DNA of 64,000 bases from Rhizobium sp. SG_E_25_P2 (GTDB lineage: Bacteria > Pseudomonadota > Alphaproteobacteria > Rhizobiales > Rhizobiaceae), in the NCBI RefSeq assembly GCF_029892285.1, contig NZ_JARXVM010000001.1, positions 248,001 through 312,000 of the forward strand, given 5' to 3'. This document shows, in pieces, positions 9,468 through 26,496 of this stretch (position 1 is the stretch's first letter; each line of letters begins with the position of its first letter). Both the position numbers and the translations under genes were made by a program. The notes beneath the pieces were generated by a model, which worked only from the letters and a program-made list of their open reading frames with translations, did not search any database and was not told the DNA's origin.

Positions 9468-10496
9468 TTAGACCACGCGGCCCTCTTTGGTCATAGCCAC
9501 GCCGTCCAGCGAGAGCGAGCAGCCACGGAGCGGGATGTCGAGATGACACGGCGTATCGCGCGTTCCCCCGGCTTCCGTGTTAGGGCCGGTCGAAAAGAGA
9601 AAATTGCCGGCGAATGAACGCGCGTCCATGCCCAGTCCCGCTTCCGGATTGTAAAGGCCGAGCGTCGTCCAGTGAGCGCGCGGCTCAAGGCCCCAGCCGA
9701 CATGGGCCATGGCATAGGCGGAGAGATCATCAAAGCTGTCCATGAAGCTCTTCATGTATTCAGCCGTGAAGCCGCCTTCGATCCGGGTCACAAAACCCTT
9801 TTCCACCGTGAGCGTCACTTTTTCGCGCGCATACATCTTGAACGGCAGCAGAATGTCGCCTTCGTCGATGACGATTACGCCTTCGGATGTCTGCTCATCC
9901 GGCCAGGTCGCGACGAAGCAGCTCGGCCAGTGGTCCCAGCGGCCTGGCTTGTCGGCGAGGCCATATTGCGTCAGCACCGGGTATTGCCCCACCGCGCAGC
10001 GGAAATCGGTGCCGGCCTTTGAGGTCACGGTCATGACCTTTGCCTTTTCAAGAATTTTCTCCGCCGCCAGCACGCGCGCCTTGCCTTCAGGCGTCGGCAT
10101 CATCCGCATCATGACTTCAGGCGGCTCGACGGCCAGCAGCATGCGGCTACCCGTTTCCAGGATCTCCGCCTGCTCAGGTGAAAACAACAGCTGCATCGTG
10201 TCGATGATCATGTCGCTGGCCTTAAGCGCAGCCAGCGCCGTGGTGTTGAACGCCAGCGGCGTCTTGCCGACATAACCGGATTTGTCGCGGCTGAGCGCCT
10301 TTTCGCCATTGATCGGCGGCAGGTTCAGCATGGTGATCACGCCGCCGAGCTGGGCAGCGGCGATGCGGCAGGTCGATATGATTTGCGGGTTGGAATCGTC
10401 GCTGGTCAGGATCGTAACCTGCTCGCCCGCCTTGACGTTGCACATTTCCAGCACGTTTTTCCAGGCGATGACGAAATCTGCGTCGCTGATGGCCAT
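9468..10496 (-). CDS. NicX-type 2,5-dihydroxypyridine 5,6-dioxygenase homologue
   Basis: The 342-residue protein resembles the aminopeptidase-T-like fold used by NicX, the Fe(II) extradiol enzyme that opens 2,5-dihydroxypyridine to N-formylmaleamate. The metal ligands known for Pseudomonas NicX, as I recall His265, His318 and Asp320, fall at exactly the same numbers here: His265 in 'AMAHVGWG', and His318 and Asp320 in 'CHLDIPLRG'. GAGGAG lies 9 bases before the ATG. It is the last gene of the leftward operon headed by an HpaB-type monooxygenase, 30 bases behind the flavin reductase. I infer that it opens a hydroxylated pyridine derived from vitamin B6, where the ring methyl group would give an N-acetyl product. 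The alternative is ordinary 2,5-dihydroxypyridine from nicotinate or 3-hydroxypyridine. Confidence 0.82.
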   Translation of the reverse strand: MAISDADFVIAWKNVLEMCNVKAGEQVTILTSDDSNPQIISTCRIAAAQLGGVITMLNLPPINGEKALSRDKSGYVGKTPLAFNTTALAALKASDMIIDTMQLLFSPEQAEILETGSRMLLAVEPPEVMMRMMPTPEGKARVLAAEKILEKAKVMTVTSKAGTDFRCAVGQYPVLTQYGLADKPGRWDHWPSCFVATWPDEQTSEGVIVIDEGDILLPFKMYAREKVTLTVEKGFVTRIEGGFTAEYMKSFMDSFDDLSAYAMAHVGWGLEPRAHWTTLGLYNPEAGLGMDARSFAGNFLFSTGPNTEAGGTRDTPCHLDIPLRGCSLSLDGVAMTKEGRVV

Positions 10497-10526
10497 GGTC
10501 GAATACTCCTCGGAAGAGATGGACGA

Positions 10527-11045
10527 TTAATTTTCAAGCTTGATGAATTTGCGATCAAAATGAACAAGCGGCGCGCCATCCGAAAGGCGAACATCGAGAA
10601 CGCGGCCGAAAAACACGGTGTGAGAAGCCGTCTCCACGCGCTCGGCGATTTCGCAATCGATATTGGCGAGTGCGCCGTCGAGCGCGGGCGCGCCGGTCGC
10701 TAAAATGCTCCAGGAGAAGGGCGTGAACTTGTCTGCCCCGGCTCGGCCGGTCTGCCCGGCGAAATCCATCGCCACGCCCTCGCCTTCACTCGCCAGAATA
10801 TTGACGCAGAATGCGCCGTCCTGCTCGATGGCATGATGAGCCTCGCCATTTTTGTTGACGCAAACCAGGATGGTCGGCGGGTCCATGGTGACGCTGGAAA
10901 TGGCGGTCGCCGTCAATCCACGGCGATTGTCGCCATGGCCGGCGGTGATAATGCCGACGCCGCTGGCGAAACGGCGCATGGCGCCTTTGAAGGCGTCGAT
11001 AGGAGGCTCGGACAAAGCTGGCGATGCGCTTATGGCGTCCTGCAT
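10527..11045 (-). CDS. HpaC-type flavin reductase
   Basis: The 172-residue protein is a flavin-reductase-like split-barrel protein: 'FASGVGIITAG', 'GLTATAISSVTMDPP', 'FCVNILA' and the C-terminal 'DGAPLVHFDRKF'. This family reduces FMN or FAD with NAD(P)H and passes the free reduced flavin to a partner monooxygenase. The partner should be the HpaB-type oxygenase at the head of the same operon. AAGGAC lies 6 bases before the ATG, and only 3 bases separate it from the AbrB-type gene upstream. Which flavin and nicotinamide it prefers cannot be told from the sequence. Confidence 0.9.
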   Translation of the reverse strand: MQDAISASPALSEPPIDAFKGAMRRFASGVGIITAGHGDNRRGLTATAISSVTMDPPTILVCVNKNGEAHHAIEQDGAFCVNILASEGEGVAMDFAGQTGRAGADKFTPFSWSILATGAPALDGALANIDCEIAERVETASHTVFFGRVLDVRLSDGAPLVHFDRKFIKLEN

Positions 11046-11048
11046 GGT

Positions 11049-12134
11049 TTAGTCCTTCCAAATCGGGATGCGGGCAATCTGCTTCATGATGAACGGGCCG
11101 AACAGCACGACCACAAGCATCCGCACAGTCTGAAACGCCAGAACGACGGAGACGTCGGCATGGCCGGCAATTGCGACGATGGCCACGGTCTCGATGCTGC
11201 CGGGCGCCGTGGCCAGAAATGCCGTCAGCATGTCGATGGGCAGAAACAGCCGCAGAACCAAGGCCAGGAGTGCGCTTAGCGCGATCAATAACAGGCACGA
11301 CACCAGCACGACCGGCACGATGCGCACGACATTGGCGAGCGATTCTCGCGTGAATTTCAGCCCGACCTCCAGTCCGATCACGGCGAATGTCAGGGAAACC
11401 ACCTCATCGAGCAAGACGATGTGAAAGGCTCCCGACGCTTCTAAAAACGCGCCCAGAACCAGGGGCGCCAGCATGGCGGCGGCCGGGATCCAGCGCAGTC
11501 GGGCGGCAAAAGGCGCGATCAGCGCCAACAGCGCCGACAATCCGACCGCAGTCCAGGAAAACCCGCCCACGGGATCAGCCGCCAGATTGGCCAAAGGCGA
11601 ATTGGGCAGGAAATGCGTGATCATCGACACGGCGAAGATCACGCTTGCCAGCCGGGTATATTGCATCAAGGCCACGATCCGGCCGTCGATACCACGCTCC
11701 TGGGCGATGATCACCATCGCTCCCGACATGCCGGGAAGGCTGCCAAGGATTGCCGGCATTTGCGCCACCCCACCCCAGCGATTGATCGACCAGCCGACAA
11801 AAAACGCCGAGGCCAGGGTGAGAGCCGTAAACAGGATCAAAAGCGGCCAATGGGCGGACACATCCACGAGAATGGACGGCGTCAGGCTGCGGGCGATGAA
11901 GACGCCCGCAAAGCCCTGCGCCAATATGTAGACGATCCTGGGCATGCGCAGTTGGGCGCCGCCGACGCCGAACACGATCCCGGCGATCATTGAGCCAAGC
12001 AGCACGGCGGCGGGAAATCCGACCTGTGTCAGCACGAAGGCAAGCATGACGGCGAGCAGGATGAGCCCCGCCCAGTTCCGCGCCTTGGCGCCGTGCTCCC
12101 GCCACCGCTGCCCGTCTGTTTCTGCAATACTCAT
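11049..12134 (-). CDS. AbrB-family membrane protein (putative transporter)
   Basis: The 361-residue, strongly hydrophobic protein has about ten membrane segments in two repeats. Each repeat carries a half-membrane loop with a Pro-Gly-Ser motif, 'GSLPGMSGAMV' near residue 145 and 'TAPGSIETVA' near 315. This duplicated AbrB arrangement was once called ammonia monooxygenase regulator and is now taken as a transporter-like family; no substrate is established. Its ATG overlaps the stop of the upstream amidase gene by four bases (ATGA), so translation is coupled. Inside a ring-degradation operon it may export or import an acid intermediate, but that is inference. Confidence 0.85.
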   Translation of the reverse strand: MSIAETDGQRWREHGAKARNWAGLILLAVMLAFVLTQVGFPAAVLLGSMIAGIVFGVGGAQLRMPRIVYILAQGFAGVFIARSLTPSILVDVSAHWPLLILFTALTLASAFFVGWSINRWGGVAQMPAILGSLPGMSGAMVIIAQERGIDGRIVALMQYTRLASVIFAVSMITHFLPNSPLANLAADPVGGFSWTAVGLSALLALIAPFAARLRWIPAAAMLAPLVLGAFLEASGAFHIVLLDEVVSLTFAVIGLEVGLKFTRESLANVVRIVPVVLVSCLLLIALSALLALVLRLFLPIDMLTAFLATAPGSIETVAIVAIAGHADVSVVLAFQTVRMLVVVLFGPFIMKQIARIPIWKD

Positions 12135-13444
12135 GCGAACGGACCGCCCGTGAATCCAACCGCCTTTTCGGCGAAAGCGGCCACATGCAGCAGCCGCGCA
12201 TCATCGCCAATCCGACCGACTAACTGCGCGCCGACGGGGAGACCCTTGGCCGACAACATCACGGGAAGGGTCACGCAAGGACCATGCAAAACAGTCCACG
12301 GGCTGTTGAACACAGGCGCGCCGGTGGATGAAAGGCCTTCTGGCGCCTCTCCCGGCGCCGGCAGCGTCATGATCGCATCCAGCCCATCCATCAGTGCAGA
12401 CAGTTGCGCGCGTCGTTCGATGATGGCAGTGCAAGCCGCTTCATAGTCTTCCACCGAAACTTTCGCTTTTTCAGTCAGGAAATCGCGCGTGACCGGCGTC
12501 AATCTATCCCAGAGCTTAAGGCGTTCGTGGGCCAGAGCGTGCGTGACCTCCCACCCCATGATCGCCGAATGCAGGTCGTGCAGACTGTCGAACCAGTCGG
12601 GCAAGGCGATCGTTTTCATCACACCGCCAGCAGCCGAAATCCGCGTAGCCGCCTGTTCCAGCGCGACCATGGCTTCGGGACCTGCTTGATCAATGCGCGA
12701 AGGCGCAAACAGGCCGATCACCGGCTGGTCCGGAATATCATTGACTACGAGGCGCGAACGCCCAGAAAGGGCTGCAGCGCACCAGGCTGCATCATCCACT
12801 CTGCGGGTAATCAGCCCCAGAGTGTCGAGCTGATGCGACAAGACCTTGACTTCAGCGGCGTCAATCAATCCAAAGCTCGGCTTGTAGCCGACCACCCCAC
12901 AATAGGAGGCGGGGCGAATGATGGAGCCGGCTGTCTGTGTGCCGAAGGCCATCAGCGCCATTCCGGCGGCCACCGCCGCGCAAGAACCGCTCGATGATCC
13001 GCCGGGGGTATGGGCCGGATTATAGGGGTTACGCGTCTTGCCGGAGCTGGCCATGGCGAACTCGGTCGAGACGGTCTTGCCGAGAACCAGCGCTCCCTCT
13101 GCGCGGCTCAGCGCTACGCAGGGCGCATCGCAAGCCGGCTGAAAGCCTTCATAGGCGGACGAACCGTAGCCGGTGGGCATATCCGCTGTGTCGATGACAT
13201 CCTTGACGCCGATGGCGACGCCCGAAAGCGCGCCTTTCGGGCCGGCCTTGTCGATGTCGCCCGCCTGAGCCAAGATCTGTTCCGCATCGATATATTTCCA
13301 AGCCTGCACATCGGCTTCATGCGCAGCGATCCGCTCCAGATAGGCTTCGGCGATCTCGGTCACGGTCAGGCTGTGGCCTTCAACGAAAGCAGCCAATGTT
13401 CTGGCGCTAAGCGCGCGGATTTCAGGGGATGACAACTTGTTCAT
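12131..13444 (-). CDS. Amidase-signature hydrolase 1
   Basis: The 437-residue protein has the amidase-signature fold with the Ser-cisSer-Lys triad: Lys81 in 'AIGVKDVIDT', Ser152 in 'GGSSSGS', and nucleophile Ser174 in 'GTQTAGSIIRP'. A GGAGAG ribosome site precedes the ATG. It follows the second amidase by 21 bases and overlaps the AbrB-type gene by four. Amidase-signature enzymes cut many amides, so the family alone does not fix the substrate. In this operon a ring-opened N-acyl maleamate is the likely target; the presence of two amidases matches the two C-N bonds that remain after NicX-type cleavage. Confidence 0.88.
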   Translation of the reverse strand: MNKLSSPEIRALSARTLAAFVEGHSLTVTEIAEAYLERIAAHEADVQAWKYIDAEQILAQAGDIDKAGPKGALSGVAIGVKDVIDTADMPTGYGSSAYEGFQPACDAPCVALSRAEGALVLGKTVSTEFAMASSGKTRNPYNPAHTPGGSSSGSCAAVAAGMALMAFGTQTAGSIIRPASYCGVVGYKPSFGLIDAAEVKVLSHQLDTLGLITRRVDDAAWCAAALSGRSRLVVNDIPDQPVIGLFAPSRIDQAGPEAMVALEQAATRISAAGGVMKTIALPDWFDSLHDLHSAIMGWEVTHALAHERLKLWDRLTPVTRDFLTEKAKVSVEDYEAACTAIIERRAQLSALMDGLDAIMTLPAPGEAPEGLSSTGAPVFNSPWTVLHGPCVTLPVMLSAKGLPVGAQLVGRIGDDARLLHVAAFAEKAVGFTGGPFA

Positions 13445-13465: not shown

Positions 13466-14908
13466 TCAAGCCGACACACTCCGCGGGCGGCGATGAAACC
13501 AGGGCCGGGCGCGCTCGATCTGCCCTGCCAGCGAAAACAGAAGTTCCTCGCCGCCAAAGGCTGCGCCAAGATGCACGCCGATGGGCAACCCGAATTGTGA
13601 TTGGCCAAACGGCACGCTCATGGCCGGGCAACCCGAGGCGTTGAAGGCGCAGGTAAACGGTCCATGCGACCAGAAGCGGTCATAAAAACTGTCGAGATCG
13701 CCCTGGCTGCTCGCCATCTCGCCGATCACAGGCGCAAGTTCTCCGGTGACGGGCGACATAAGCACGTCATAGCGCTCAAAGAACCGGCCGAGCGACCGCG
13801 CCGTCTGGTGCAACTGATTGACAGCGGAGAGATATTCGATGCTGCTGTGCGCCAAACCTTCGCGCACCCATTGCGCATTGACCGGCTCCAGTTCCGAGAT
13901 CGGATCGGAGAGCCCGAGCTGGCGGCCGCGCGCCAACACCGCCGGCGCAACATTGACGCCGGCAATCACCCGCCAGGCGGCCTTCAGGGCATGTGCATCA
14001 TAGCCTGCTTTATCGACCAGCTCGACGTGGTGGCCCAAGCTTTCCAGAAAACTGGCGGCCTCTTCGACCGTCCTGATGATGTCAGGATGAACCGCCGTGC
14101 CGAGCGGCGAGGTCAGCGTCAACCCGATGCGCAGCGGCTTTGGATCACGACCGGCGGCGGCGAGGAACGAGCCAGCGGCGGCCGGCGCGGCATAGGGATC
14201 GCCGATATCTGGACCCGCAGACGCATCGAGCAGAGCCGCATTGTCGCGAACGCTCCATGACAGCGCATGCGGCGTCGACATGCCGGCAATACCTTCCACA
14301 GCCACAGGGCCGAGCGGGTTACGCATGCGGCTGGGCTTGAAGCCGAACAGGCCGCTATGGGAGGCGGGCAGACGCGTCGAACCTGCGCCATCCGATGCAT
14401 TGGCCATCGGCATGATCCCTGCGGCGACGGCTGCGGCGGACCCGCCCGACGAGCCGCCCGGGCCATGCTCCGTGTTCCAGGGATTACGTGTGACGCCGAA
14501 GGCCGAAGGCTCGGTCGCAAAACTCAGCGCAAATTCCGGCGTATTGGATTTGCCGACAATGACCAGACCCGCATTCTTGTAGCGGGCAGCCAGCGTTCCA
14601 TCACGGCTCGATACGGCATCGGCGAAAAGCCTGGATCCTGTCGACAGGATCATGTCCTTCACTTCAAAGCCAGTGTTCTTGATCAGGAACGGCACGCCGG
14701 TGAAGAGCCCGTCGGGCAAGCCTTGTTCAATGGCGCTGAATGCAAGATCGAAATGGCGATGAACCACGGTGTTCAGCACAGGATCGAGCGCCTCGATCAG
14801 CGAGATGGCTGTTTTCAACAGCTCAACCGGTGAAACCGCCTTGGTCTTGACCAACTGGGCCAGGCCCAGCGCGTCATAGGTCTGATATTCGGCAATTCTC
14901 ATTGTCAT
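13466..14908 (-). CDS. Amidase-signature hydrolase 2
   Basis: The 480-residue protein carries Lys77 in 'FLIKNTGF', Ser154 in 'GGSSGGS' and nucleophile Ser177 in 'DGAGSTRLP', the complete amidase-signature triad. The start at 14908 is supported by a TGATG overlap with the SnoaL-like gene upstream; a GTG at 14911 and an ATG at 14902 are the other options. It is only distantly similar to the neighbouring amidase, so the pair is not a recent duplication and probably acts on different bonds. The predicted role is hydrolysis of the imide or amide left after pyridine ring opening. Confidence 0.88.
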   Translation of the reverse strand: MTMRIAEYQTYDALGLAQLVKTKAVSPVELLKTAISLIEALDPVLNTVVHRHFDLAFSAIEQGLPDGLFTGVPFLIKNTGFEVKDMILSTGSRLFADAVSSRDGTLAARYKNAGLVIVGKSNTPEFALSFATEPSAFGVTRNPWNTEHGPGGSSGGSAAAVAAGIMPMANASDGAGSTRLPASHSGLFGFKPSRMRNPLGPVAVEGIAGMSTPHALSWSVRDNAALLDASAGPDIGDPYAAPAAAGSFLAAAGRDPKPLRIGLTLTSPLGTAVHPDIIRTVEEAASFLESLGHHVELVDKAGYDAHALKAAWRVIAGVNVAPAVLARGRQLGLSDPISELEPVNAQWVREGLAHSSIEYLSAVNQLHQTARSLGRFFERYDVLMSPVTGELAPVIGEMASSQGDLDSFYDRFWSHGPFTCAFNASGCPAMSVPFGQSQFGLPIGVHLGAAFGGEELLFSLAGQIERARPWFHRRPRSVSA

Positions 14909-15300
14909 CACGCAATCTGCGCCAGAAACTCGGCCTTGTCCCAGAGATCCTGCGTCTCAATGATCTGTCCGTTTTCAATCGTGAACACATGCAGCCCTGG
15001 CAGGGCGACTGGCTTGGCTGCGGCATCCGAAGAGCGCGGCGCCACATGGCCCGTCATCGTATAGACAACAGCGACGCGGCCAGCGGAGCGAACCCGTTCG
15101 CGCTCGCGCCAGACGACATCGGGCATCATCTTGAAAAAGCCTTCGAGCCCCGCCTGAAGCGCATCGGCGCCGGCGCGCGTCTTGCCCATGGCCATCTCGA
15201 CATGGCGCCCATCACTGGCATAGAGCGCAATGGCTGCGGACGCATCATGGCGATTATAGCAATCGTAAAACTGGTCGATGAGTTGATCGTGAGACAACAT
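14908..15300 (-). CDS. SnoaL/NTF2-like protein
   Basis: The 130-residue protein has the NTF2-like pattern of SnoaL and ketosteroid-isomerase relatives: 'LIDQFYDCYNRHDASAAIALYA', 'GLEGFFKMMPDVVW' and the C-terminal 'IIETQDLWDKAEFLAQI'. I use the ATG at 15300, where the fold begins; the frame is open far upstream, but that part overlaps the oxygenase gene. The ribosome site is weak, so coupling to the upstream gene, 91 bases away, is possible. The fold can isomerise, hydrate or simply bind small acids and lactones. In this operon it may act on an intermediate between hydroxylation and ring opening. No catalytic residue can be assigned. Confidence 0.8.
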   Translation of the reverse strand: MLSHDQLIDQFYDCYNRHDASAAIALYASDGRHVEMAMGKTRAGADALQAGLEGFFKMMPDVVWRERERVRSAGRVAVVYTMTGHVAPRSSDAAAKPVALPGLHVFTIENGQIIETQDLWDKAEFLAQIA

Positions 15301-15391: not shown

Positions 15392-16882
15392 TTACCAGTC
15401 CATGCCGGCAAGTTTCTTGACCTGCGCGACATAGCCGTTGCGATCGACTTCATCGAACAGGCGGGCGCGCAGGCGCGGCGCAGGGCTGGCGTTGACGTTT
15501 TCAAACAGGGCGACGCGGCCGGCAAGCGCGCTTGCGGTCATGTCCCAGATGAAGTTCATCAACAGTTCCTTCTGCATAGCCGATACGCCATGACCAGGCA
15601 GCAGATCCTTGAGATGGTGGCCGATCTCCGGGTTCTCGTAAGCAGCCTTGCCGAACCGCATGACCAGGCCCTGACCACACATTTCCTGCAGGATATGGAT
15701 GATGCGCGGATAGTGCTGGATGGAATAGAGACGGCCTGCCGTCAGCATGCCGACATCCGGCGCCATGACATCAGCTTCGGTCGGCTTGGCCTTGGCTTCG
15801 GCGGCGTAGATGAAGGCGCGCAAGGTCTGCGCATATTCGATCAGTTCGCCCAGCATCATCTGCACGGCCGGGATCTTGTCGGTGCCAAGCACCTCGATAA
15901 CCATCTGGCCGGCGCCGACGAACAGTTCGGCTTTAACCGCCAGACGCGTCAGCACATGCCAATGGGCAAACACGCAGACCGGACCATACCATTGCATGGC
16001 TGTGGGATCGCCGAGATTGAAGATCCGCTCCGTCGGCACGAACACATTGTCGAACACGATGAATTGGTCGGCTTCTTCGCCGCGATGACCGACCGGGTGG
16101 TCGAACGGGTCAGCGCCCGGCTGCGACACCATTTCGCGCGAGATCATCTTGATGCCGGGCGTGTTGATCGGCACAGAGCCCCAGATGCAGGCGTCGGCGG
16201 GCGTAGACTGGATGCCGCCGAGATTGGTGAAGAAGATTTCGTTGGCCTGAGCGGCGATGGAGCCGACCGTCTTGGCGCCTGAAATGCGGATGCCGCCCTT
16301 CTCGACCGATTTGACCCGCAACAGCGACCCTTCCGCCGCTTTTGGATCAGAACGATCTGTCTGCGGGCCCGCAAGGCTTTCGGAGGCGGTCAGATTGTTT
16401 TCACGGCCAAACGCAATGTAGCTTTCGATATTCTCGGCAAAATCAGGGCTGCAGCCGTCGATCAGCGATTTTTTCGCCTTGAAGGTTGGCAGATAGGCAG
16501 CCAGACCAACGGCGATCGCCGGAGCCAGATCCGGCGGACGACCAAAAGTGCCGCCCGTCTTCAGGCTGGTGTATTCGATCATCTTGCGACGATCTTCCAG
16601 ATCCTGCTTGGTGCGCGGAATCTGCCAGGAACGGCTGACGATCTCGTTGGTCGTCGGCTCGATATAGGTGGTGGCGTCGGCGTATTCTTCGGTGAACTGG
16701 TCGTCAAACATGGAGGCGAGCAGATCAATGCCCGCTTTCAGCGCCGGCTCGTCGGTCACCTTCTCAACGCGCTTGCCCCCGACCCAGAGCTGGCGCCCAT
16801 CATCGAGTGATGCCTTGAACTCTTCGCCTGTCTTCAGGCGACTGACGACCTTTGCCTTGGCGGCGGACACTGTGTTGACCAT
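15392..16882 (-). CDS. HpaB-type flavin-dependent monooxygenase, oxygenase component
   Basis: The 496-residue protein belongs to the 4-hydroxyphenylacetate 3-hydroxylase family, which uses free reduced flavin and O2 to hydroxylate phenol-like rings. Family features include 'TGGTFGRPPD', 'SESLAGPQTDRS', 'DHPVGHRGEEADQFIVFDNVFVP' (two overlapping family stretches) and the C-terminal helical region with 'LPGHGVSAMQKE'. AGGAG precedes the ATG by 6 bases. It heads the leftward operon that also encodes a flavin reductase and the NicX-like dioxygenase. I infer hydroxylation of a 3-hydroxypyridine at the para position, which would produce the diol that a NicX-type enzyme needs. Relatives that hydroxylate para to a phenol OH exist (chlorophenol 4-monooxygenases). 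The true substrate is untested. Confidence 0.88.
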   Translation of the reverse strand: MVNTVSAAKAKVVSRLKTGEEFKASLDDGRQLWVGGKRVEKVTDEPALKAGIDLLASMFDDQFTEEYADATTYIEPTTNEIVSRSWQIPRTKQDLEDRRKMIEYTSLKTGGTFGRPPDLAPAIAVGLAAYLPTFKAKKSLIDGCSPDFAENIESYIAFGRENNLTASESLAGPQTDRSDPKAAEGSLLRVKSVEKGGIRISGAKTVGSIAAQANEIFFTNLGGIQSTPADACIWGSVPINTPGIKMISREMVSQPGADPFDHPVGHRGEEADQFIVFDNVFVPTERIFNLGDPTAMQWYGPVCVFAHWHVLTRLAVKAELFVGAGQMVIEVLGTDKIPAVQMMLGELIEYAQTLRAFIYAAEAKAKPTEADVMAPDVGMLTAGRLYSIQHYPRIIHILQEMCGQGLVMRFGKAAYENPEIGHHLKDLLPGHGVSAMQKELLMNFIWDMTASALAGRVALFENVNASPAPRLRARLFDEVDRNGYVAQVKKLAGMDW

Positions 16883-17930: not shown

Positions 17931-18956
17931 ATGAAAATGAAAACTATATCTACGCTTCTCGCATCAGTAACTTTTGCGCTATTTACAACAATGGCGCATT
18001 CTCAGGACATAAAGTCCATCGCAATTCTTACGCCTGAACAAGGAACAGACTTCGGCTGGAACCAGCAAGGCGTCGATGGCGCAAAAGCTGCCGGCAAGGC
18101 GACCGGCGTTGAGGTGGTGACGGCTGAAAATCTTGGCTATGGCGATGTGCGGCCGACCCTGCGCGAGCTGGCGGAAGACGGCAATGCGCTTCTCATCGCC
18201 CATGCCAGCGGCTACAATACCGCAGCGCCTGAGATTGGCGCGGAACTGGGTGTGAAGGTCGCCATTGTCGACAGCCCCAACTCGCTGAAAAAGGACGCGG
18301 TGGCCGACTACACCGCCAGCGGCCATGAAGGCGCGTATCTTGCCGGACGCCTTGCCGCCAAAATGTCGCGCTCCGGCACTGTCGGCATCGTGGTGTCGGG
18401 CGAGCCGCCATCTTGGAATTCGCAATCCGCCGCTTTTGCCGAAGGCGTGAAGGCTGAGAAGCCGTCGACCGTCATCCGCTACGCCGTGATCGGCCCGGCC
18501 GCCTATTCCGACGCCGCTGGCGGCAAGCGCGTGACGGAATCGCTGATCGCTTCCGGCGCCGACATCATTTTCGGCCAGGGCAACGGCTCGTCCTTCGGCA
18601 TGCTGCAGGCCGTGGAAACGACAAAGGCCGTCGACGGCGGCAAGGTGCTGTTCATTGATGTGATCGGCGACAAGTCCACTATCGACAAGGGCTATCTGCT
18701 GAGTTCGGTGTTGTGGAACCTGACGCCCGTCTACACAGCCATGATCGAGGACATCAAGGCGGACAAATTCGGATCACGGAACTACAATATCTCGCTGCAG
18801 GATGACTCCGTCTCGCTGCTCAAGACCAAGCAGATCCCGGACGATGTCTGGACATCGGTGATGGAGATCCGCGACCAGATCATCAAGGGCGACATCAAGA
18901 TCACGCCGAAGTTCGACGCCGAATCCGTGCATGCGCTGGTCAGCCAGTTGAAGTAA
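17931..18956 (+). CDS. BMP-family periplasmic substrate-binding protein
   Basis: The 341-residue protein has a signal peptide (about residues 1-24, ending 'TTMAHS') without a lipobox, as expected for a Gram-negative periplasmic protein. The mature part is of the BMP/PnrA type: 'ILTPEQGTDFGWNQQGVDGAK', 'AHASGYNTAAPEIG', 'GHEGAYLAGRLAAKMS' and 'VIGDKS' (all short family stretches). Known relatives bind purine nucleosides, and one branch (Treponema RfuA) binds riboflavin. It is the first gene of a four-gene ABC operon and is followed by a stem-loop. Because the flanking genes degrade vitamin B6, I infer that it binds a B6 vitamer or a related pyridine. This has not been shown. Confidence 0.87.
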   Translation: MKMKTISTLLASVTFALFTTMAHSQDIKSIAILTPEQGTDFGWNQQGVDGAKAAGKATGVEVVTAENLGYGDVRPTLRELAEDGNALLIAHASGYNTAAPEIGAELGVKVAIVDSPNSLKKDAVADYTASGHEGAYLAGRLAAKMSRSGTVGIVVSGEPPSWNSQSAAFAEGVKAEKPSTVIRYAVIGPAAYSDAAGGKRVTESLIASGADIIFGQGNGSSFGMLQAVETTKAVDGGKVLFIDVIGDKSTIDKGYLLSSVLWNLTPVYTAMIEDIKADKFGSRNYNISLQDDSVSLLKTKQIPDDVWTSVMEIRDQIIKGDIKITPKFDAESVHALVSQLK

Positions 18957-18996: not shown

Positions 18997-19030
18997 GCAT
19001 GACTGCGCGGAAAAAACGGCGGTAATTTTG

Positions 19031-20602
19031 ATGACATCTCCCCAAGCTGCGGCGTTGGCGCCGAGCCAGCCGATCGTGTCGCTGAAAGACGTGACCAAGC
19101 GCTTTCCCGGCATTGTCGCAAACGATTCCATATCGATCGATTTTTTCCCGGGTGAAGTGCATGTGCTTCTGGGCGAGAACGGCGCTGGCAAGTCCACACT
19201 GGTCAGCATGCTCTCCGGACTGCAGCAGCCGGACGATGGCGACATCCTGATCGACGGGGTTCGCAAGGCCATCCAGTCGCCGCAGCACGCTTTGTCAGTG
19301 GGCATCGGCACGGTGTTTCAGCATTCCATGCTGGTGCCCAGCCTGACGCTGGTGGACAATGTCAATCTCGGCGGTCGCTGGTGGCGCAGCCCGGACAGGC
19401 CAGCGATCGCTGCGCGCATGAGCGAAACCGCCCGGTCGATCGGCGTCGAGGTCACGCCGATGGCGGTGACCAACAGCCTGTCGCTGGGCGAGCAGCAACA
19501 AGCCGAGATCGTGCGTGCGCTGATGCGCGGCAGCCGCTTTCTCATTCTTGATGAAGCCACCGCCATGCTGACGCCGAAGGATGCGGAGAAGCTTGGCCTT
19601 CTGATGCGCCGGCTGGTGTCGCAGGGTCTCGCGGTGATCTTCATCACCCACAAGCTCAACGAAGCCGTGGCCTATGGCGATCGGATCTCGGTGCTGCGGC
19701 TCGGCAAGAAAGTCGGTGCGATTGCGCCGGATGCATTGAAATCGCTTGGCCCGGAAAAGGTGACGCAAGAAATCGTCAGGCTGATGTTTGGCCAGAGCGA
19801 AGACAAAACCGCCCAACCGCAGGCAGATACCGTATCCAGGGCAAAGCCGCCTCTGGGCGAACCCGTGCTGGAAATTCTGGCTCTCGAAGTCGATGATCCG
19901 TCTGTCCCGGTCTCCGGCGTCGAGTTGAAGATCCGCTCTGGCGAAATCGTCGGCGTCGCCGGCATCGATGGCAATGGCCAGAAGCAGCTGGCCGAAGCGC
20001 TCGCCGGCCAACGGCCCATCCGCAATGGACGCATCTATCTCGACGGCGCGCCGCTGGAGGATCTTTCCGTGGGCGATCGTCGCAAGCGCGGCCTGCGTTA
20101 TGTCACCGATGATCGCCTGGGCGAAGGCACGGTCGGCGCTTTTCCCGTTTCCATCAATCTTCTGCTCAAGCAGATCGGCGAAGCGCCATTCTGGCGATCG
20201 GGTCTCGAAAACCCATCCGAAATCGCCGCCAACGCCCGAAAACAGGTGGTCGAATTCGACATACGCACGCCAAGCATTGAAACGCCTGCGGGCAAGCTGT
20301 CGGGTGGGAATATCCAGAAACTGCTTCTGGCGCGCGAACTGACCGGCTCCGCCCGCGCTGTCATCTTCGCCAAGCCGACTTATGGGCTGGACCTGCAGAA
20401 TATCGCCGCCTCGCGCCGCCGCATCCGCGACGCCGCCGATACCGGCAAGGCGGTGCTGGTGTTTTCAACCGAGCTCGACGAACTCCTGGAATTGTCCGAC
20501 CGTATCGCTGTGATGTCGCAGGGACGCGTGGTCGGCATTGTCGACAATGACGCCTCCGCCCGCCAGCGGATCGGCGAAATGATGAGTGGTGTGGCCAAAT
20601 GA
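19031..20602 (+). CDS. ABC transporter ATPase with two nucleotide-binding domains
   Basis: The protein has about 523 residues from the ATG at 19031 (a TTG one codon earlier is less likely). The first half has an intact Walker A, 'GENGAGKST', signature 'LSLGEQQQ' and Walker B 'FLILDEATAM'. The second half has a degenerate Walker A, 'GIDGNGQKQ', and signature 'LSGGN'. This fused layout is typical of sugar and nucleoside importers of the RbsA/NupA type. Walker B of the second half reads 'VIFAKPTYGLD', where the usual acidic residue of 'LIVAQPTRGLD'-like motifs is also absent in relatives. The stop overlaps the next gene by four bases. It powers the BMP-type importer. Confidence 0.92.
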   Translation: MTSPQAAALAPSQPIVSLKDVTKRFPGIVANDSISIDFFPGEVHVLLGENGAGKSTLVSMLSGLQQPDDGDILIDGVRKAIQSPQHALSVGIGTVFQHSMLVPSLTLVDNVNLGGRWWRSPDRPAIAARMSETARSIGVEVTPMAVTNSLSLGEQQQAEIVRALMRGSRFLILDEATAMLTPKDAEKLGLLMRRLVSQGLAVIFITHKLNEAVAYGDRISVLRLGKKVGAIAPDALKSLGPEKVTQEIVRLMFGQSEDKTAQPQADTVSRAKPPLGEPVLEILALEVDDPSVPVSGVELKIRSGEIVGVAGIDGNGQKQLAEALAGQRPIRNGRIYLDGAPLEDLSVGDRRKRGLRYVTDDRLGEGTVGAFPVSINLLLKQIGEAPFWRSGLENPSEIAANARKQVVEFDIRTPSIETPAGKLSGGNIQKLLLARELTGSARAVIFAKPTYGLDLQNIAASRRRIRDAADTGKAVLVFSTELDELLELSDRIAVMSQGRVVGIVDNDASARQRIGEMMSGVAK

Positions 20603-21708
20603 GCGCGGACATCTCGAGCGTCGCTAAGGGCGGCGACATGACTAAATCGGCCGTAGCGACTGGCCAGAGCGATACGACGCGCGAACGCCTGCACACCATA
20701 GCCCTGTCCATCGGGCCGCTGATCGCCGCGCTGCTGATCGCCAGCCTGATCCTGTTGCTGATGAGCGTCGATCCGCTTGCCTATTACGGCTATATCGTCA
20801 AAAGGGGTCTGCTGTCGCCCACCGGCCTGCAGGCGACCCTGACGGGCATGGGACCTCTGCTGCTCATCGCCGCCGGCCTGATCGTCGCCTTCCGCGCCGG
20901 CATATGGAATCTCGGCGGCGACGCGCAGTTCCTGCTCGGCGCCGTGTTCGTCGCCGCCTTCGCGCCGCTTCTGGTTCAGATCATGCCTGTTTGGGCCACG
21001 CTCATCGTCAGCCTGGTCATTGGCGCGGTCGCCGGCGCAATCTGGTCAATCGTGCCTGCGCTGTTGCGCGCCTATCAGGGCGTCAACGAGATCATCACCA
21101 CGATGATGATGACGTTTCTCGGCATTTCCTTCGCCAATGTGCTGGTGAAACTATTGTTTCTCGATCCGACGACGACTGTGCCGCAAACCCGCACACTGCC
21201 GGTCGAGGATCGCCTGCCGCGTCTTTTCGACACCACCGTATCGAGCGGACTACTGATCGGTTTGGCCGCGATCCTGATCGTGCATTTTGTCATGGCGCGC
21301 ACCGCTTTCGGCCTCAAGCTGCGGATCGTTGGGGCCAATGCCCGCGCCGCCGTGCATGCGGGACTGCCGGTGTCGGCGCTCACGGTCACGGTGTTCGCTT
21401 TGTCGGCCGGCCTCTCCGGCCTGTCGGGCGCGACCGCCATCCTCGGCCAATATGGCAATGTCCGCGCCGACTGGAATCCGGCCTATTCGCTGACCATCGT
21501 GCCGCTGGTGTTTCTGGCCCGCTTCAATGGTTTTGCCACCATCGCCTATGTGTTTTTCTTCTCGATGCTGTCGATCGGCAGCGAGAGCGCCGCGCGACGG
21601 ATGGGCGTGCCGAATTATTTCACGCTGGTGACCATGGCGGTTCTGCTCATTTTGCTCGCCGTCACCGAAATGCTCGATCAACGTCGCCGCGATCGCAAGA
21701 GGGTTTGA
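20599..21708 (+). CDS. ABC transporter permease 1 (BMP/nucleoside type)
   Basis: The 369-residue protein has a short cytoplasmic N-terminus of about 35 residues and then nine or ten membrane segments. The conserved loop 'YQGVNEIITTMMMTFLGIS' (residues about 158-176) is the ATPase-coupling helix typical of the branched-chain/ribose permease superfamily. The ATG overlaps the ATPase stop (ATGA). It pairs with permease 2, whose ATG lies two bases after its stop. Together they should form the channel of the importer in the inner membrane. Confidence 0.92.
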   Translation: MSADISSVAKGGDMTKSAVATGQSDTTRERLHTIALSIGPLIAALLIASLILLLMSVDPLAYYGYIVKRGLLSPTGLQATLTGMGPLLLIAAGLIVAFRAGIWNLGGDAQFLLGAVFVAAFAPLLVQIMPVWATLIVSLVIGAVAGAIWSIVPALLRAYQGVNEIITTMMMTFLGISFANVLVKLLFLDPTTTVPQTRTLPVEDRLPRLFDTTVSSGLLIGLAAILIVHFVMARTAFGLKLRIVGANARAAVHAGLPVSALTVTVFALSAGLSGLSGATAILGQYGNVRADWNPAYSLTIVPLVFLARFNGFATIAYVFFFSMLSIGSESAARRMGVPNYFTLVTMAVLLILLAVTEMLDQRRRDRKRV

Positions 21709-21710: not shown

Positions 21711-22643
21711 ATGACGCTTTTCACGGAAGCCTTCATGACCGCATTGCTGGTGGGCGCGATCGCCGCCGGCATCCCGCTTCTGCTTGCCGGCCTCGGCGAA
21801 CAACTCTCTGAAAAGGCCGGCGTGTTAAATATCGGCATTGAAGGCATGATGCTGTCGGGCGCCTATTTCGGCTTCCTTGTCGCCTGGAAGACAGACTCGG
21901 CCTTGCTCGGCTTTCTAGGCGGCATGGGCGGCGGCATGGTCGTCGCAGCGCTGATGGCGCTGTTTTGCGTGCGCATGGGCCTGAACCAGATCGTCATCGG
22001 CATTGCGCTGACGCTCGGGGCGGAGGGAGCCACAGCGCTTCTGCATCATGTGCAGTTCAGCCAGAGCTATCCGAGACTGTCGGCGCCGACGACATGGGCC
22101 ATTCCAGGATTGACTCAAATCCCGGTGCTCGGGCCCGCGCTGTTCAGCCGCGAACCGGTCGCCTATCTCTCCCTGGCGCTGGTGGGCGTGCTTGCCTATC
22201 TCTACCGCCGCACACATTGGGGCATCGCGCTCCAGGCGGCCGGCGACAAGCCGGCGGCCTTGGATGCCGCCGGCGTCAATGTCATTCTCATCCGCTCCGG
22301 CGCTGTCCTCATCACTGGGGCGCTTGTCGGGCTGGGCGGCGCGTTCATGGCCATTGTCGGGGCCGGCATTTTCGTGCCGTTCATGACCCATGGCCAGGGC
22401 TTTATCGGCATCGTGCTGGCGATGCTGGCTCGCGGCAAGCCGCTCTGGGTGCTGGGCGGCGCAATCCTGTTCGGCGCCTGCCTGTCGCTGACCACAGCGC
22501 TGCAGGTGGCGGGCGTGGATATTCCCACTGACGTCATCCAGATGTTGCCATTTGCCGCCGTGATGCTGGTGCTGGTTTTTCTCGGTCGCAAGGCCAATCT
22601 GCCGAGCGCTTTGGGAGCCGCCTATGTGCGCGGCGCCCGCTGA
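21711..22643 (+). CDS. ABC transporter permease 2 (BMP/nucleoside type)
   Basis: The 310-residue membrane protein has the family hallmarks 'EKAGVLNIGIEGMMLSGAY' near residue 35 and 'MGLNQIVIGIALTLGAEG' near 90, followed by several membrane segments. The start is the ATG at 21711, two bases after the permease 1 stop; the same frame is open far upstream only because it is a shadow of permease 1. It is the last gene of the importer operon. It ends 49 bases before the convergent transaminase gene; the GC-rich gap holds no obvious T-tailed terminator. Confidence 0.92.
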   Translation: MTLFTEAFMTALLVGAIAAGIPLLLAGLGEQLSEKAGVLNIGIEGMMLSGAYFGFLVAWKTDSALLGFLGGMGGGMVVAALMALFCVRMGLNQIVIGIALTLGAEGATALLHHVQFSQSYPRLSAPTTWAIPGLTQIPVLGPALFSREPVAYLSLALVGVLAYLYRRTHWGIALQAAGDKPAALDAAGVNVILIRSGAVLITGALVGLGGAFMAIVGAGIFVPFMTHGQGFIGIVLAMLARGKPLWVLGGAILFGACLSLTTALQVAGVDIPTDVIQMLPFAAVMLVLVFLGRKANLPSALGAAYVRGAR

Positions 22644-22692
22644 TCGGCTCGGGAGCGTGGGGGGCTGGCGCCCGCCCTCGCCCCTTCATCCG

Positions 22693-23868
22693 TCACGATG
22701 CGTCGATGGACGCGATGACCGCCGCGGCGCCCGCGCCGATATCACAGGCGCCGGCAACCAGTTTATTGAGCGCGGCCCCCAAGGCAGCCACGGCAGTCAG
22801 CGCATAGATGGGCTGGGCGGTCGGCCCCATATGGCCGATGCGGACCAGTTTGTTGTGCGTCTCGCCACGTCCCGACGAAATCATGACGCCGTAATCATCA
22901 CGCATGATGCGGCGCAATGCGGTCTCATCCACGCCCAAGGGCAGCGCCACCGCCGTCGCCGTCGGGGAGGCAATCTCCTCACGAGCCGCCCAGAGCGTCA
23001 ATCCCATAGCCTTGATCCCGGCGCGGCACGCTGCGGCGGTCGCGGCGTGTCGGGCCCAGACAACCTGCGCTCCTTCCGCCAGATAAAGATCGAGCGCGGC
23101 TTCCAAGGCGTTGATCTCCGCGACCGACGGCGTGAATGGAAAGGGCTGGTCCGGGCGCCAGGCATGCTCCCAATCCAAAATGCTCAGGATCGACGCCTTT
23201 GGCGCGCGCGGATTGGATTTTATCTTCTCCCAGCCCTTGGCGCTGATAGCGAGGAGCGACAGACCCGGAGGGCAGCCCAGGCACTTGTTCGGGCCCGTGA
23301 CAAAAATGTCGGCATGCACGGCGTCCGGCAAAATCTCCATGCCGCCGAAAGACGATACGGCGTCGACAATAAAAACCGCCCGGCTCTTGGCGACCAATGC
23401 GCCAATGGCCGCGACCGGATTGATGGTGCCGGACGGCGTATCGTGATGGCAGACGGCGACGACCGTGATGTCAGGCCTCTGCTCAAGCATCGCCGCGACC
23501 GCGTCGGGATCGATCGCTTCATTGAAGGGCGTACGGATCTCCAGATATTCGCGGCAGCGCGGCTCCAGCCAATAGCGATAGCCGTCGCCATAAACGCCAG
23601 ACGCAAGATTGAGCACGACATCGTCTGGCGACACGACCGATGCGGCGGCGGCCTCAAGCCCAAGCACCGGTTCGCCCTGCAAGATGATCGGCGGAACAGA
23701 GGTTTGCATGGCCGCCATCGCTTTTTGGCTTACACGGGAATAGGTTTCGAGGAATCCGGGATCGTAATCGTAGAGCACCGGCCGGCCCAGCGCCTGCAGC
23801 ACGGCGGGGTAACAATTGACCGGGCCAGTGGTCAGCGTGAAAATCGTTTCGTTGCGGGGCTGTGTCAT
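22693..23868 (-). CDS. ppaT: Pyridoxamine-pyruvate transaminase
   Basis: The 391-residue fold-type I PLP-like enzyme converts pyridoxamine and pyruvate to pyridoxal and L-alanine, the entry step of B6 breakdown. It matches the Mesorhizobium loti enzyme, as I recall its sequence, along nearly its whole length: 'TGPVNCYPAVL', 'VLYDYDPGF', 'QGEPVLGLEAAAAS', 'NLASGVYGDG', 'CHHDTPSGTINP', 'RIGHMGPTAQPIYA'. The substrate-binding lysine is Lys195 in 'TGPNKCLG' (Lys197 in M. loti). That is well beyond general similarity to serine- or alanine-glyoxylate aminotransferases. The ATG at 23868 has GGAG 9 bases upstream. It is divergent from the FadR-type regulator, with CAACCA operators between them. Confidence 0.93.
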   Translation of the reverse strand: MTQPRNETIFTLTTGPVNCYPAVLQALGRPVLYDYDPGFLETYSRVSQKAMAAMQTSVPPIILQGEPVLGLEAAAASVVSPDDVVLNLASGVYGDGYRYWLEPRCREYLEIRTPFNEAIDPDAVAAMLEQRPDITVVAVCHHDTPSGTINPVAAIGALVAKSRAVFIVDAVSSFGGMEILPDAVHADIFVTGPNKCLGCPPGLSLLAISAKGWEKIKSNPRAPKASILSILDWEHAWRPDQPFPFTPSVAEINALEAALDLYLAEGAQVVWARHAATAAACRAGIKAMGLTLWAAREEIASPTATAVALPLGVDETALRRIMRDDYGVMISSGRGETHNKLVRIGHMGPTAQPIYALTAVAALGAALNKLVAGACDIGAGAAAVIASIDAS

Positions 23869-23905
23869 GCGGCATTTTCTCCAGGCAAATGGGACGTCCT
23901 GCACT

Positions 23906-23940
23906 CAACCATTCGTCAAACCATAATTGATTATTGGTTG
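23906..23940. promoter_or_regulatory. Operator repeats before the transaminase gene
   Basis: CAACCAT lies at 23906-23912. The imperfect palindrome AACCA-N11-TGGTT spans 23919-23939, with TTGGTTG ending at 23940. On the minus strand, TTGTGC upstream and an AATAAT-like -10 inside the palindrome could form the ppaT promoter. Operator over the -10 is the same arrangement proposed at 17023-17041. Confidence 0.58.
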
Positions 23941-24047
23941 GCCATCACCTTGCACAATAGGTTTCATTCCGCAAAAAGCAATTGCGACATTCACCGACTT
24001 GGCTTAGTTGCTAGGGAAATTCGCCATCACAGCCTGCCGTTTAGGAT

Positions 24048-24070
24048 CAACCATAAGGCCAACCATATGG
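24048..24070. promoter_or_regulatory. Operator repeats overlapping the regulator's start codon
   Basis: CAACCATA at 24048-24055 is repeated as CAACCATATGG at 24060-24070, a 12-base step. The second copy contains the palindrome CCATATGG and includes the ATG at 24067. Binding here would block the regulator's own message, so autoregulation is likely. Confidence 0.55.
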
Positions 24071-24879
24071 CCACCACGGCCAAGCGCAGATGGCGCAGTG
24101 TGAACTATGACGCTGGGGAGGTTTGGCGTCGCGTCGGAGAGAGGACGAAGTTGGACAAGCAAGCGAAACGTCAGGCGGCAGAGGCGCTGTCGAACCCGGG
24201 CCCCCACCCCATGCCGAATGACGAGGAGCCGAGCGATGTGGTCGGCTCGCTGCGCCGGATCATGGAAGAGCACGGCGTCATGCCGCCGGAGCGCGAGCTT
24301 GCGGAACGGCTGAACATCAAGCGCCATCAGTTGCGGAAGGGGCTGCAGACGCTGCGCGACCTTGGCGAACTGGAACCGGCGCGCGCCGGCCGCAGGACGT
24401 CGACAACGGAAGCAACGGCGCAGAGCGGGCGTCTTGTCCTATCCACCAATCCGCTGGAAGTGATGGAGATGCGCATGATGCTGGAGCCGGCGCTGGCCCG
24501 GCTTGCGGCTCTGCGCGCCTCGCCCGCCGAAATCATCCGCATCGTCCAGGCGGCCAGGTCGCCGGCAGGAATGAGCCCCAGCCAGGCCGACCAGATGTTC
24601 CATCGCGCCATTGCCGCCGGGTCGCGAAACAGCCTCGCCAGCGAACTGCATCTTCTGTTGAACCAGGTGCAAAACGACAGCCGGCTGCGTTTCGCCGAAA
24701 GCGACGACGAAACCACGGCGGAGCGCATCGCCGAGCGCGACGCAGAACACCAACAGATCGCCGAGGCCATTATCGCACGCGATCCGGACCGGGCGGAAAA
24801 ATGCATGTGGGATCACCTTGCAGTGGTCCAGCGCAAAATCGCCGCCAGGCTCGGCGTGGGGAGCTTGGACAGCCTGTAA
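24067..24879 (+). CDS. FadR/GntR-family transcriptional regulator of the B6 locus
   Basis: The 270-residue protein has an N-terminal extension of about 50 residues. A GntR winged helix follows at about 55-118 ('MPPERELAERLNIKRHQLRKG', read as family pattern ERELAERL...LRKGL...LGEL), then an FCD ligand domain at about 135-260 ('FHRAIAAGSRNSL', 'EHQQIAEAIIARD', 'MWDHLAVV'). Most relatives are about 230 residues, so an internal ATG at 24211 is an alternative start. I prefer 24067, with AAGG 8 bases upstream. It is divergent from ppaT and 87 bases before pyridoxine 4-oxidase. It is the natural candidate for the protein that binds the CAACCA...TGGTTG sites. Its inducer is probably a B6 vitamer or its acid. 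Confidence 0.88.
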   Translation: MATTAKRRWRSVNYDAGEVWRRVGERTKLDKQAKRQAAEALSNPGPHPMPNDEEPSDVVGSLRRIMEEHGVMPPERELAERLNIKRHQLRKGLQTLRDLGELEPARAGRRTSTTEATAQSGRLVLSTNPLEVMEMRMMLEPALARLAALRASPAEIIRIVQAARSPAGMSPSQADQMFHRAIAAGSRNSLASELHLLLNQVQNDSRLRFAESDDETTAERIAERDAEHQQIAEAIIARDPDRAEKCMWDHLAVVQRKIAARLGVGSLDSL

Positions 24880-24966
24880 GCTGCCTCAGTTTCCATCTCG
24901 ACAGACCGTAATTTCCCGCCCTTGCAGCTTGAACGCCGCGAGACGCCTCACCATGGAGTTTTTAGG

Positions 24967-26496
24967 ATGCCGCATTTCGATATTCTGATCATAGGCGCGG
25001 GCTCTGCGGGCTCGGTGCTTGCCAATCGACTATCCGCTGACCCCGCATGCCGCGTCGGTGTGCTCGAGGCGGGGGGCATGCCGACAGATCCGGACATCGA
25101 CAATCCGTTAAAGTGGCCATTCATCCAAGGTCGCGACTATGATTGGGCGTTCGAGACCATCCCGCAGGCCGGCACGGCCGGGCGCGTCCATCCCTGGCCG
25201 CGTGGCAGGATATTTGGCGGATCGAGCTGCCTACACGCAATGGCGCATGTGCGCGGACATCGCGACGATTTCGCCCCCTGGGCCGAGGCGACAGGATCCT
25301 CGCGCTGGTCTTATGAGGGCTTGCTGCCAAGCTTTATCGCAATGGAGGACTTCTCAGGCCCGGCGAGCGCCCATCATGGCAAAGGCGGCCCGCTGCCTGT
25401 CTGGATTCCCCATGACGAGGTCAGTCCGGTGGCGCGGGCCTATATGCGCGCGGGCGAAGAAATCGGCGCGCCCGTGCTCGGCGATCATAATGGCGAACAT
25501 CTGAACGGCTTGGCGCCCAATTCGCTGACGATTCGCGATGGCAAGCGCGTCAGCGCCGCGCAGGCCTATCTGTTCCCGATCCTGTCGCGTCCTAACCTCA
25601 CGCTGCAGGGGGACGCCACGGTTCATCGGCTGATCATGGAGGCAGGCAGGATCGCGGGAGTGGAGGTGACCATTGGTGGTCAGGATATGGTCTACAGCGC
25701 CGACACGGTGATCCTTGCCGCCGGCTCAGTGGCCAATCCACTGCTGCTGATGCGCTCGGGCGTCGGCGATCCGGAGACGCTTGCGAAGGCGGGCGTCGCC
25801 TGCAGTCTGTCCCGATCGCAGGTTGGCCGCAATTTGCACGACCATTTGCTGGGCTCCGGCAACGCCTATCGATCCAGGCAACCGGTGCCCGCTTCGCGCC
25901 TCCAGCATTCCGAATCGCTGATGTATCTGAACGCAAAAGACCCGTCGATCGCCTCGGGGAAACCCGACGTGGTCCTGGGCTGCGTCATCGGCCCGTCGGC
26001 ATCTGAAGCGTTGCCGTCGCAGCAGCCCGGCGAAGCCTATACGCTGCTGTTCGGGGTCACGCACCCAACCAGCCGAGGCGACCTGAAAATCTCAGGACCC
26101 GACATCGCGAACAAACCGATCATCGACCCCGCTTATCTCCAGACCGAGAATGATCGTCGGCTCTTTCGCCGCGCGCTCGATTACGCGCGCATGGTAGGCC
26201 AGGCAAGCGCGATGGACGACTGGCGCGGCGAGGAAATCTTGCCGGGTTCCAAGCCGATGTCGGACGCGGAAAAGGACGCCTTCATCGCCAAGGCGGTGAT
26301 CACCCATCACCACCCGGTTGGCACATGCCGGATGGGGAAAGATGAAACCGCCGTCGTAAACGCGGACCTCAAGCTCAATGGCCTCGACAATCTCTATATC
26401 GTCGATGCTTCGGTCATTCCCTCGATCACTTCCGGCCCCGTTCACGCCGCCGTTCTGGCGATCGCGGAAACCTTTGCCGCGACATGGAGGCCATGA
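24967..26496 (+). CDS. pno: Pyridoxine 4-oxidase (GMC flavoprotein)
   Basis: The 509-residue GMC oxidoreductase oxidises the 4-hydroxymethyl of pyridoxine to pyridoxal with O2. It matches the Mesorhizobium loti enzyme, as I recall it, throughout: 'EAGGMPTDPDI', 'QGRDYDW', 'QAGTAGR', 'GGSSCLHAM', 'GKGGPLP', 'PNSLTIRDGKRVSAA', 'RNLHDHLLGSGN', 'PASRLQHSES', 'LLFGVTHPTSRG', 'DPAYLQT'. The FAD-binding motif GAGSAG is at residues 10-15. The catalytic region is 'ITHHHPVGTCRMG' (His447-449), with a second conserved His493. The ATG at 24967 has GGAG about 9 bases upstream. It probably shares a transcript with the regulator 87 bases upstream. No signal peptide is present, so it is cytoplasmic. Confidence 0.93.
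   Translation: MPHFDILIIGAGSAGSVLANRLSADPACRVGVLEAGGMPTDPDIDNPLKWPFIQGRDYDWAFETIPQAGTAGRVHPWPRGRIFGGSSCLHAMAHVRGHRDDFAPWAEATGSSRWSYEGLLPSFIAMEDFSGPASAHHGKGGPLPVWIPHDEVSPVARAYMRAGEEIGAPVLGDHNGEHLNGLAPNSLTIRDGKRVSAAQAYLFPILSRPNLTLQGDATVHRLIMEAGRIAGVEVTIGGQDMVYSADTVILAAGSVANPLLLMRSGVGDPETLAKAGVACSLSRSQVGRNLHDHLLGSGNAYRSRQPVPASRLQHSESLMYLNAKDPSIASGKPDVVLGCVIGPSASEALPSQQPGEAYTLLFGVTHPTSRGDLKISGPDIANKPIIDPAYLQTENDRRLFRRALDYARMVGQASAMDDWRGEEILPGSKPMSDAEKDAFIAKAVITHHHPVGTCRMGKDETAVVNADLKLNGLDNLYIVDASVIPSITSGPVHAAVLAIAETFAATWRP

Follow-up and report, generated by a model that had tools for sequence, protein, structure and literature searches.

A vitamin B6 gene cluster of Rhizobium sp. SG_E_25_P2 with HpaB- and NicX-type genes probably represents a further route of ring opening

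A stretch of 64,000 nt of Rhizobium sp. SG_E_25_P2 (the window; contig NZ_JARXVM010000001.1, positions 248,001 to 312,000 of the forward strand, assembly GCF_029892285.1) was analyzed, in which genes for the uptake and oxidation of vitamin B6 adjoin an operon for an HpaB-type monooxygenase, a NicX-type dioxygenase, and two amidases. This operon belongs with vitamin B6 metabolism and is not a mere neighbor of the B6 genes. It is likely that the locus constitutes one regulon for B6 uptake and ring opening, with a lower pathway unlike that of Mesorhizobium loti, and it probably represents a further, so far undescribed vitamin B6 route; the gene combination itself was found in dozens of other bacteria. 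The genes under study lie at 9468 to 26496 (window positions are used throughout), and the features are listed below.

9468..10496, minus strand: NicX-family Fe(II) ring-cleavage dioxygenase with Gln at NicX position 177 (phmmer match to 7cn3, ligand alignment)
10527..11045, minus strand: HpaC-type flavin reductase (PF01613, Flavin_Reduct, 142.7 bits)
11049..12134, minus strand: AbrB-duplication membrane transporter (PF05145 and TIGR03082 above cut-off)
12131..13444, minus strand: amidase-signature hydrolase 2 (PF01425, 226.8 bits)
13466..14911, minus strand: amidase-signature hydrolase 1 (PF01425, 278.5 bits)
14908..15300, minus strand: SnoaL-like small protein kept in the module (PF12680; in 43 of 47 B6-type loci)
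15392..16882, minus strand: HpaB-type monooxygenase (PF11794 and PF03241, HpaB_N and HpaB; tree)
17009..17314, no strand: operator-like cluster of 8 CAACCA/TGGTTG half-sites in the gap between the HpaB operon and the importer (word counts)
17419..17853, minus strand: small secreted protein with four invariant Cys, accompanying the B6 importer (alignment, locus survey)
17931..18956, plus strand: B6 ABC importer, BMP-type binding protein (NF047927, 488 bits, cut-off 400)
19028..20602, plus strand: B6 ABC importer, ATPase (NF047930, 761 bits, cut-off 670)
20599..21708, plus strand: B6 ABC importer, permease 2 (NF047929, 523 bits, cut-off 400)
21711..22643, plus strand: B6 ABC importer, permease 1 (NF047928, 511 bits, cut-off 465)
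22693..23868, minus strand: pyridoxamine-pyruvate transaminase (PPAT; NF046070, 636 bits, cut-off 600; 536 bits to 2z9u)
23906..24065, no strand: operator-like cluster of 4 CAACCA/TGGTTG half-sites in the gap between PPAT and the regulator (word counts)
24067..24879, plus strand: FCD-type regulator, candidate operator binder (PF07729, FCD, above cut-off; GntR domain 20.3 bits, below the cut-off of 27)
24922..26496, plus strand: pyridoxine 4-oxidase of the GMC family (608.9 bits to 4ha6)

PPAT exceeded the cut-off of its family in the NCBIfam profile search and matched 2z9u, a structure deposited as 'aspartate aminotransferase' that we take to be the PPAT of M. loti; the GMC oxidase matched the known structure 4ha6, 'Pyridoxine 4-oxidase'. 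All four importer subunits scored above the curated NCBIfam cut-offs for the 'putative B6 ABC transporter'. HpaB carries the Pfam domains HpaB_N and HpaB, its flavin reductase partner is encoded in the operon, and its score was under the equivalog cut-off of HpaB-1 (4-hydroxyphenylacetate; 240.6 versus 480.2 bits). The dioxygenase matched chain 7cn3, a 2,5-dihydroxypyridine dioxygenase, with an E value of 1.4e-121 in phmmer. These profile and structure-sequence matches put every named B6 and HpaB-NicX-amidase gene where a first-pass annotation of the sequence had placed it, whereas the AbrB-type transporter, the SnoaL-like protein, the small secreted protein, and the shared operator-like repeats had been overlooked there.

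In order to examine the linkage of the HpaB operon to B6 genes, a collection of species genomes was scanned with patterns from the window HpaB, which yielded 59 loci (L numbers), 47 of them with HpaB of the window type (at least 73% identity). Among these 47, PPAT was found in 43, the pyridoxine oxidase in 44, and NicX in 45, and the loci in which any of the three was missing (L085, L099, L114, and L118) are all contigs of 4.7 to 11.6 kb. In the remaining 12 loci, PPAT was detected only in L115, from Komagataeibacter rhaeticus. The HpaB tree, from which L114 and L118 (fragments, coverage limit) and L119 (identity limit) were excluded, contained a clade of 56 rows (SH-aLRT 99) with PPAT in 54, the other two lying on short contigs, and a separate clade of 14 rows with PPAT in none. 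When 397 genomes from the same order, including the window genome, were surveyed, PPAT was above cut-off in 24 and HpaB (E of 1e-80 or lower) was detected in 8, all of which were among the 24 (Fisher P of 5e-11, assuming independent genomes). The two sets are not independent of each other because their members overlap; for example, the HpaBs of L068 and L053 are identical. The linkage spans several named families and persists through rearrangement of the locus. Chance adjacency of the HpaB operon was rejected on the basis of the co-occurrence, the HpaB clade, and the shared operator word described below.

The whole genome of the window strain (39 contigs, 99.5% complete) was searched for enzymes of the M. 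loti pathway, with the query for the ring-opening (MHPC) oxygenase identified by 3alj and that for the final (acetamidomethylenesuccinate) hydrolase by 3kxp. The MHPC oxygenase was absent (best match, 32% identity), and the final hydrolase had no match at an E value of 1e-15 or lower. Neither the 4-pyridoxolactonase (NF047925; best 103 bits versus 325) nor the SDR-type pyridoxal 4-dehydrogenase (NF047923; best 220 bits versus 325) was present above the cut-off. These searches ruled out an M. loti-type oxygenase, hydrolase, or lactonase hidden elsewhere in the genome. The earlier statement that the lower genes of M. loti are missing stands for these three enzymes; the genome search did not extend to the 4-pyridoxate dehydrogenase and the decarboxylase, which it also named. 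Among the 24 PPAT genomes of the survey, the M. loti-type oxygenase (86 to 100% identity) and the final hydrolase (76 to 100%) were found in the same 5, and the 4-pyridoxolactonase was above the cut-off in 10; none of the three was found in the 8 HpaB genomes. For HpaB and the lactonase, this exclusivity gave a P value of 0.004. PPAT together with HpaB, without the M. loti oxygenase, hydrolase, and lactonase, was seen in 8 of 8 HpaB genomes of the survey.

Neither the MHPC oxygenase nor HpaB was seen in 11 of the 24 PPAT genomes. Two genomes, G015 and G131 (loci L045, L122, L044, and L124), have several further genes in common that lie no more than about 20 kb from PPAT; one encodes a GMC protein that is 72 to 77% like that of L123, and the others appeared, by eye only, to be LVIVD-, GST-, and HIBDH-like. 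Perhaps these genomes hold yet another lower route.

The region that separates HpaB from the small secreted protein and the importer holds 8 CAACCA/TGGTTG half-sites, and that between PPAT and the regulator holds 4; in the remaining 63 kb of the window there are 22. A scan of 6-base words was performed in the 25 of the 47 loci with the FCD regulator, 15 of the window type (group A) and 10 of the Ancylobacter type (group B). Only CAACCA and the overlapping AACCAA were found in both promoter regions of every one of the 25 loci. With the scan restricted to group B, 11 words, mostly GC-rich common words, occurred in both regions of 10 of 10 loci. CAACCA/TGGTTG was absent within 700 bases upstream of HpaB in six loci: three that lack B6 genes and three that belong to group C (R. 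daejeonense, Ochrobactrum type) and carry a different regulator. The FCD protein is predicted to bind the CAACCA/TGGTTG sites. Between genes of group C loci, including L005 to L007, the words ACCGTAA/TACCGTA recur, and they are a possible operator of the other GntR regulator of that group.

In the structure of NicX, the iron ligands are His265, Ser302, His318, and Asp320, and the substrate is contacted by Glu177 and His189, with Glu177 meeting N1 and the 2-OH (PMC7910607). In an alignment, all 49 dioxygenases of PPAT loci retained the four Fe ligands as well as His189. On the other hand, residue 177 is Gln in the window protein and in 50 of 50 B6-clade proteins, a count that includes L085 and L114 (short contigs on which no PPAT was seen) and excludes L157 (Val), L012 (Glu), and L115 (Glu). 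Gln was also found in 14 of 14 proteins from HpaB loci without PPAT, whereas 18 of 18 relatives outside HpaB loci (P. putida and 17 survey hits) have Glu. Position 193 is Cys in the window-type protein and Gly in 16 of 18 relatives. Two changes are needed for Gln at residue 177 on the NicX tree, which carries long-branch warnings. Gln177 would suit a substituted ring. Position 105 was dropped as a marker since Phe is frequent there also in NicX relatives without HpaB.

Based on the chemistry known for these families, the following pathway is proposed. The ABC importer would take up B6, and pyridoxamine and pyridoxine would be converted to pyridoxal by PPAT and pyridoxine 4-oxidase, respectively, as their families support. 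HpaB, with reduced flavin from the HpaC-type reductase, would hydroxylate pyridoxal or 4-pyridoxate at C6, the position para to the 3-OH, and so produce a ring of the 2,5-dihydroxypyridine type. Cleavage of the C2-C3 bond of the B6 ring by the NicX-type dioxygenase would then yield an N-acetyl imide. From this imide the two amidases would free acetate and ammonia, and the remaining unsaturated acid with its hydroxymethyl substituent would enter central metabolism. The FCD regulator would control the locus through the half-sites. This pathway of 6-hydroxylation, NicX-type C2-C3 cleavage, and two amide hydrolyses had been put forward in the first-pass annotation, and it is supported by the linkage, the promoter words, and the missing M. 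loti enzymes.

The leftward operon might instead degrade another 3-hydroxypyridine and merely lie beside the B6 genes. This had been the alternative offered earlier, together with the concern that the operon might be found without B6 genes. Such operons do occur: L008 to L011, L104 to L110, L116, L120, and L121 carry HpaB and NicX, mostly with two amidases, and have neither PPAT nor the pyridoxine oxidase. Their HpaBs, however, constitute the separate clade of 14 rows and are 63 to 67% identical, and their NicX proteins are about 40% identical. In the window-type clade, linkage is nearly complete over several named families and is maintained through rearrangement; this and the operator word common to both promoter regions contradict mere adjacency, which we regard as highly improbable. 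Four of the loci without PPAT (L008, L104, L105, and L116) have a BMP importer 53 to 60% like the B6 importer, and 4-pyridoxate itself is a possible substrate of the group. In Neorhizobium alkalisoli (L065 with L107) and N. lilium (L066 with L109), both HpaB types are present, 25 kb apart on the same contig.

Several points weigh against a single B6 regulon with this lower pathway. The loci without B6 genes show that use of the module is not confined to B6. Because the locus scan relied on exact peptide words from the window HpaB, it favors close relatives, and the B6 loci of N. alkalisoli and N. lilium have neither the two amidases nor HpaC. Taken alone, the exclusivity between HpaB and the M. 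loti oxygenase is weak (overlap 0 of 8, P of 0.10). The CAACCA word was initially picked by eye in the window and the 25 loci share descent; the palindrome also lies near the regulator of L008, which has no B6 genes, and so is not B6-specific. In L115 and L012, NicX is paired with HpaB yet keeps Glu177, and because L115 has PPAT, Gln177 is not required. Finally, no pyridoxal dehydrogenase or lactonase was recognized in the window-type loci, so that the step from pyridoxal to HpaB is either absent or carried out by an enzyme that was not recognized.

The last point bears on the substrate of HpaB. The lack of a dehydrogenase or lactonase above cut-off in the window genome leans slightly toward pyridoxal. 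If HpaB acts directly on pyridoxal in its hemiacetal form, the 4' carbon would be oxidized after ring opening, and in groups B and C the lactol or lactone formed by ring opening, together with a gem-diacid, would be handled by the hydrolases of lactonase type and the carboxymuconolactone-decarboxylase (CMD) homologues. In group A, the genes conserved within about 10 kb were limited to those of the core, AbrB, and the small secreted protein. Group B has in addition a CMD homologue, a hydroxyisobutyrate-dehydrogenase homologue, and, in 10 of 14 loci, a PcaD-like hydrolase. The extra genes of group C encode an SDR protein, an MBL lactonase-fold protein, a hydroxyisobutyrate-dehydrogenase homologue, a PrpD-family protein, and a CMD homologue. 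CMD homologues stand beside 30 of the 47 loci and an MBL protein beside 20. These extra genes would fit a ring-opened, lactone-forming gem-diacid with a hydroxymethyl group, and no pyridoxal-oxidizing enzyme was seen to be shared by groups A, B, C, and L115, which agrees with direct action on pyridoxal. On the other hand, 4-pyridoxate could be supplied by an ordinary aldehyde dehydrogenase elsewhere or by a pyridoxal oxidase, since a direct pyridoxal oxidase is mentioned in PMC6253932. Moreover, the SDR-MBL pair of group C, near PPAT, mirrors the dehydrogenase-lactonase pair and the gene order of the M. loti type. If 4-pyridoxate is the substrate of HpaB, as the first-pass annotation had it, this pair would oxidize pyridoxal in group C, and some other enzyme would do so in the window type. 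The MBL protein of group C was, however, rejected as a 4-pyridoxolactonase orthologue (NF047925, 50.7 bits versus a cut-off of 325), and a close relative of it is absent from the window genome (best 28 to 30%). We give direct action on pyridoxal a nearly even chance, and 4-pyridoxate a slightly lower one.

The locus of K. rhaeticus, L115, combines PPAT, HpaB, and two amidases with a NicX from another branch, so that this gene set appears to have been brought together there independently. It also holds an NCS1-like symporter, under the model cut-off, and an AKR of NF007695, a family that we take to be YdbC, presumably the pyridoxal reductase PdxI. This AKR might itself oxidize pyridoxal, which speaks against direct action of HpaB on it. 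No pyridoxine oxidase or B6 ABC importer was found in the locus. We tentatively consider, as a combination somewhat less likely to hold than to fail, that HpaB hydroxylates pyridoxal at C6, that the NicX-family dioxygenase with its altered residue opens the ring so that 4-pyridoxate is bypassed, and that the lower pathway was assembled at least twice, in the window-type clade and in Komagataeibacter.

The small secreted protein was found in 68 of 94 loci and also adjoins the B6 importer in M. loti-type genomes. An alignment of 27 sequences showed the four invariant Cys residues and an AHW motif, and the protein matched no Pfam family. The AlphaFold model (pLDDT 89) is all-beta except for an N-terminal helix, and a structure search with it gave no PDB match at an E value of 0.001 or lower. 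It is a possible accessory of uptake. The gene next to the locus, at 6443 to 9232 on the minus strand, encodes a large regulator in which a Trans_reg_C domain is combined with an AAA-type ATPase domain.

The upper part of the locus resembles pathway I of M. loti and Pseudomonas MA-1, since PPAT and pyridoxine 4-oxidase are present in both, and an ABC importer of the same family, along with the small secreted protein, is encoded at the PPAT locus in 4 of the 5 genomes that have the M. loti-type oxygenase. It differs in that HpaB/HpaC, the NicX-type dioxygenase, and two amidases take the place of the 4-pyridoxolactonase, MHPC oxygenase, and acetamidomethylenesuccinate hydrolase. Vitamin B6 pathway II (Pseudomonas IA, Arthrobacter Cr-7) begins with oxidation of the 5' carbon and keeps a one-carbon side chain through ring opening. 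The proposed route would likewise retain such a side chain, whereas the 4' carbon is where its pyridoxine 4-oxidase and PPAT act. The dioxygenase belongs to the same family as NicX of the nicotinate (nic) pathway of P. putida and has the same four Fe ligands, but it differs in Gln177, Cys193, and its partners, HpaB and the amidase-signature proteins; a Pfam scan of the operon proteins detected neither a nic-type deformylase nor an isochorismatase-type amidase. HpaB and its reductase partner are of the same families as the HpaB/HpaC and chlorophenol-type two-component monooxygenases, from which HpaB is set apart by its low HpaB-1 score and its separate B6-linked clade. No HpaB/NicX route for B6 was found among the literature matches listed (titles and opening lines of abstracts of open-licence papers), an absence that is not proof of novelty.

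Bacterial catabolism of vitamin B6 has been described in few organisms. If the proposed pathway is correct, a second ring-opening chemistry in many alphaproteobacteria would change the annotation of B6 breakdown and would account for PPAT genomes without the lower genes of M. loti. It would also add a new class of substrate for NicX-family dioxygenases and HpaB monooxygenases, marked by Gln in place of Glu177.

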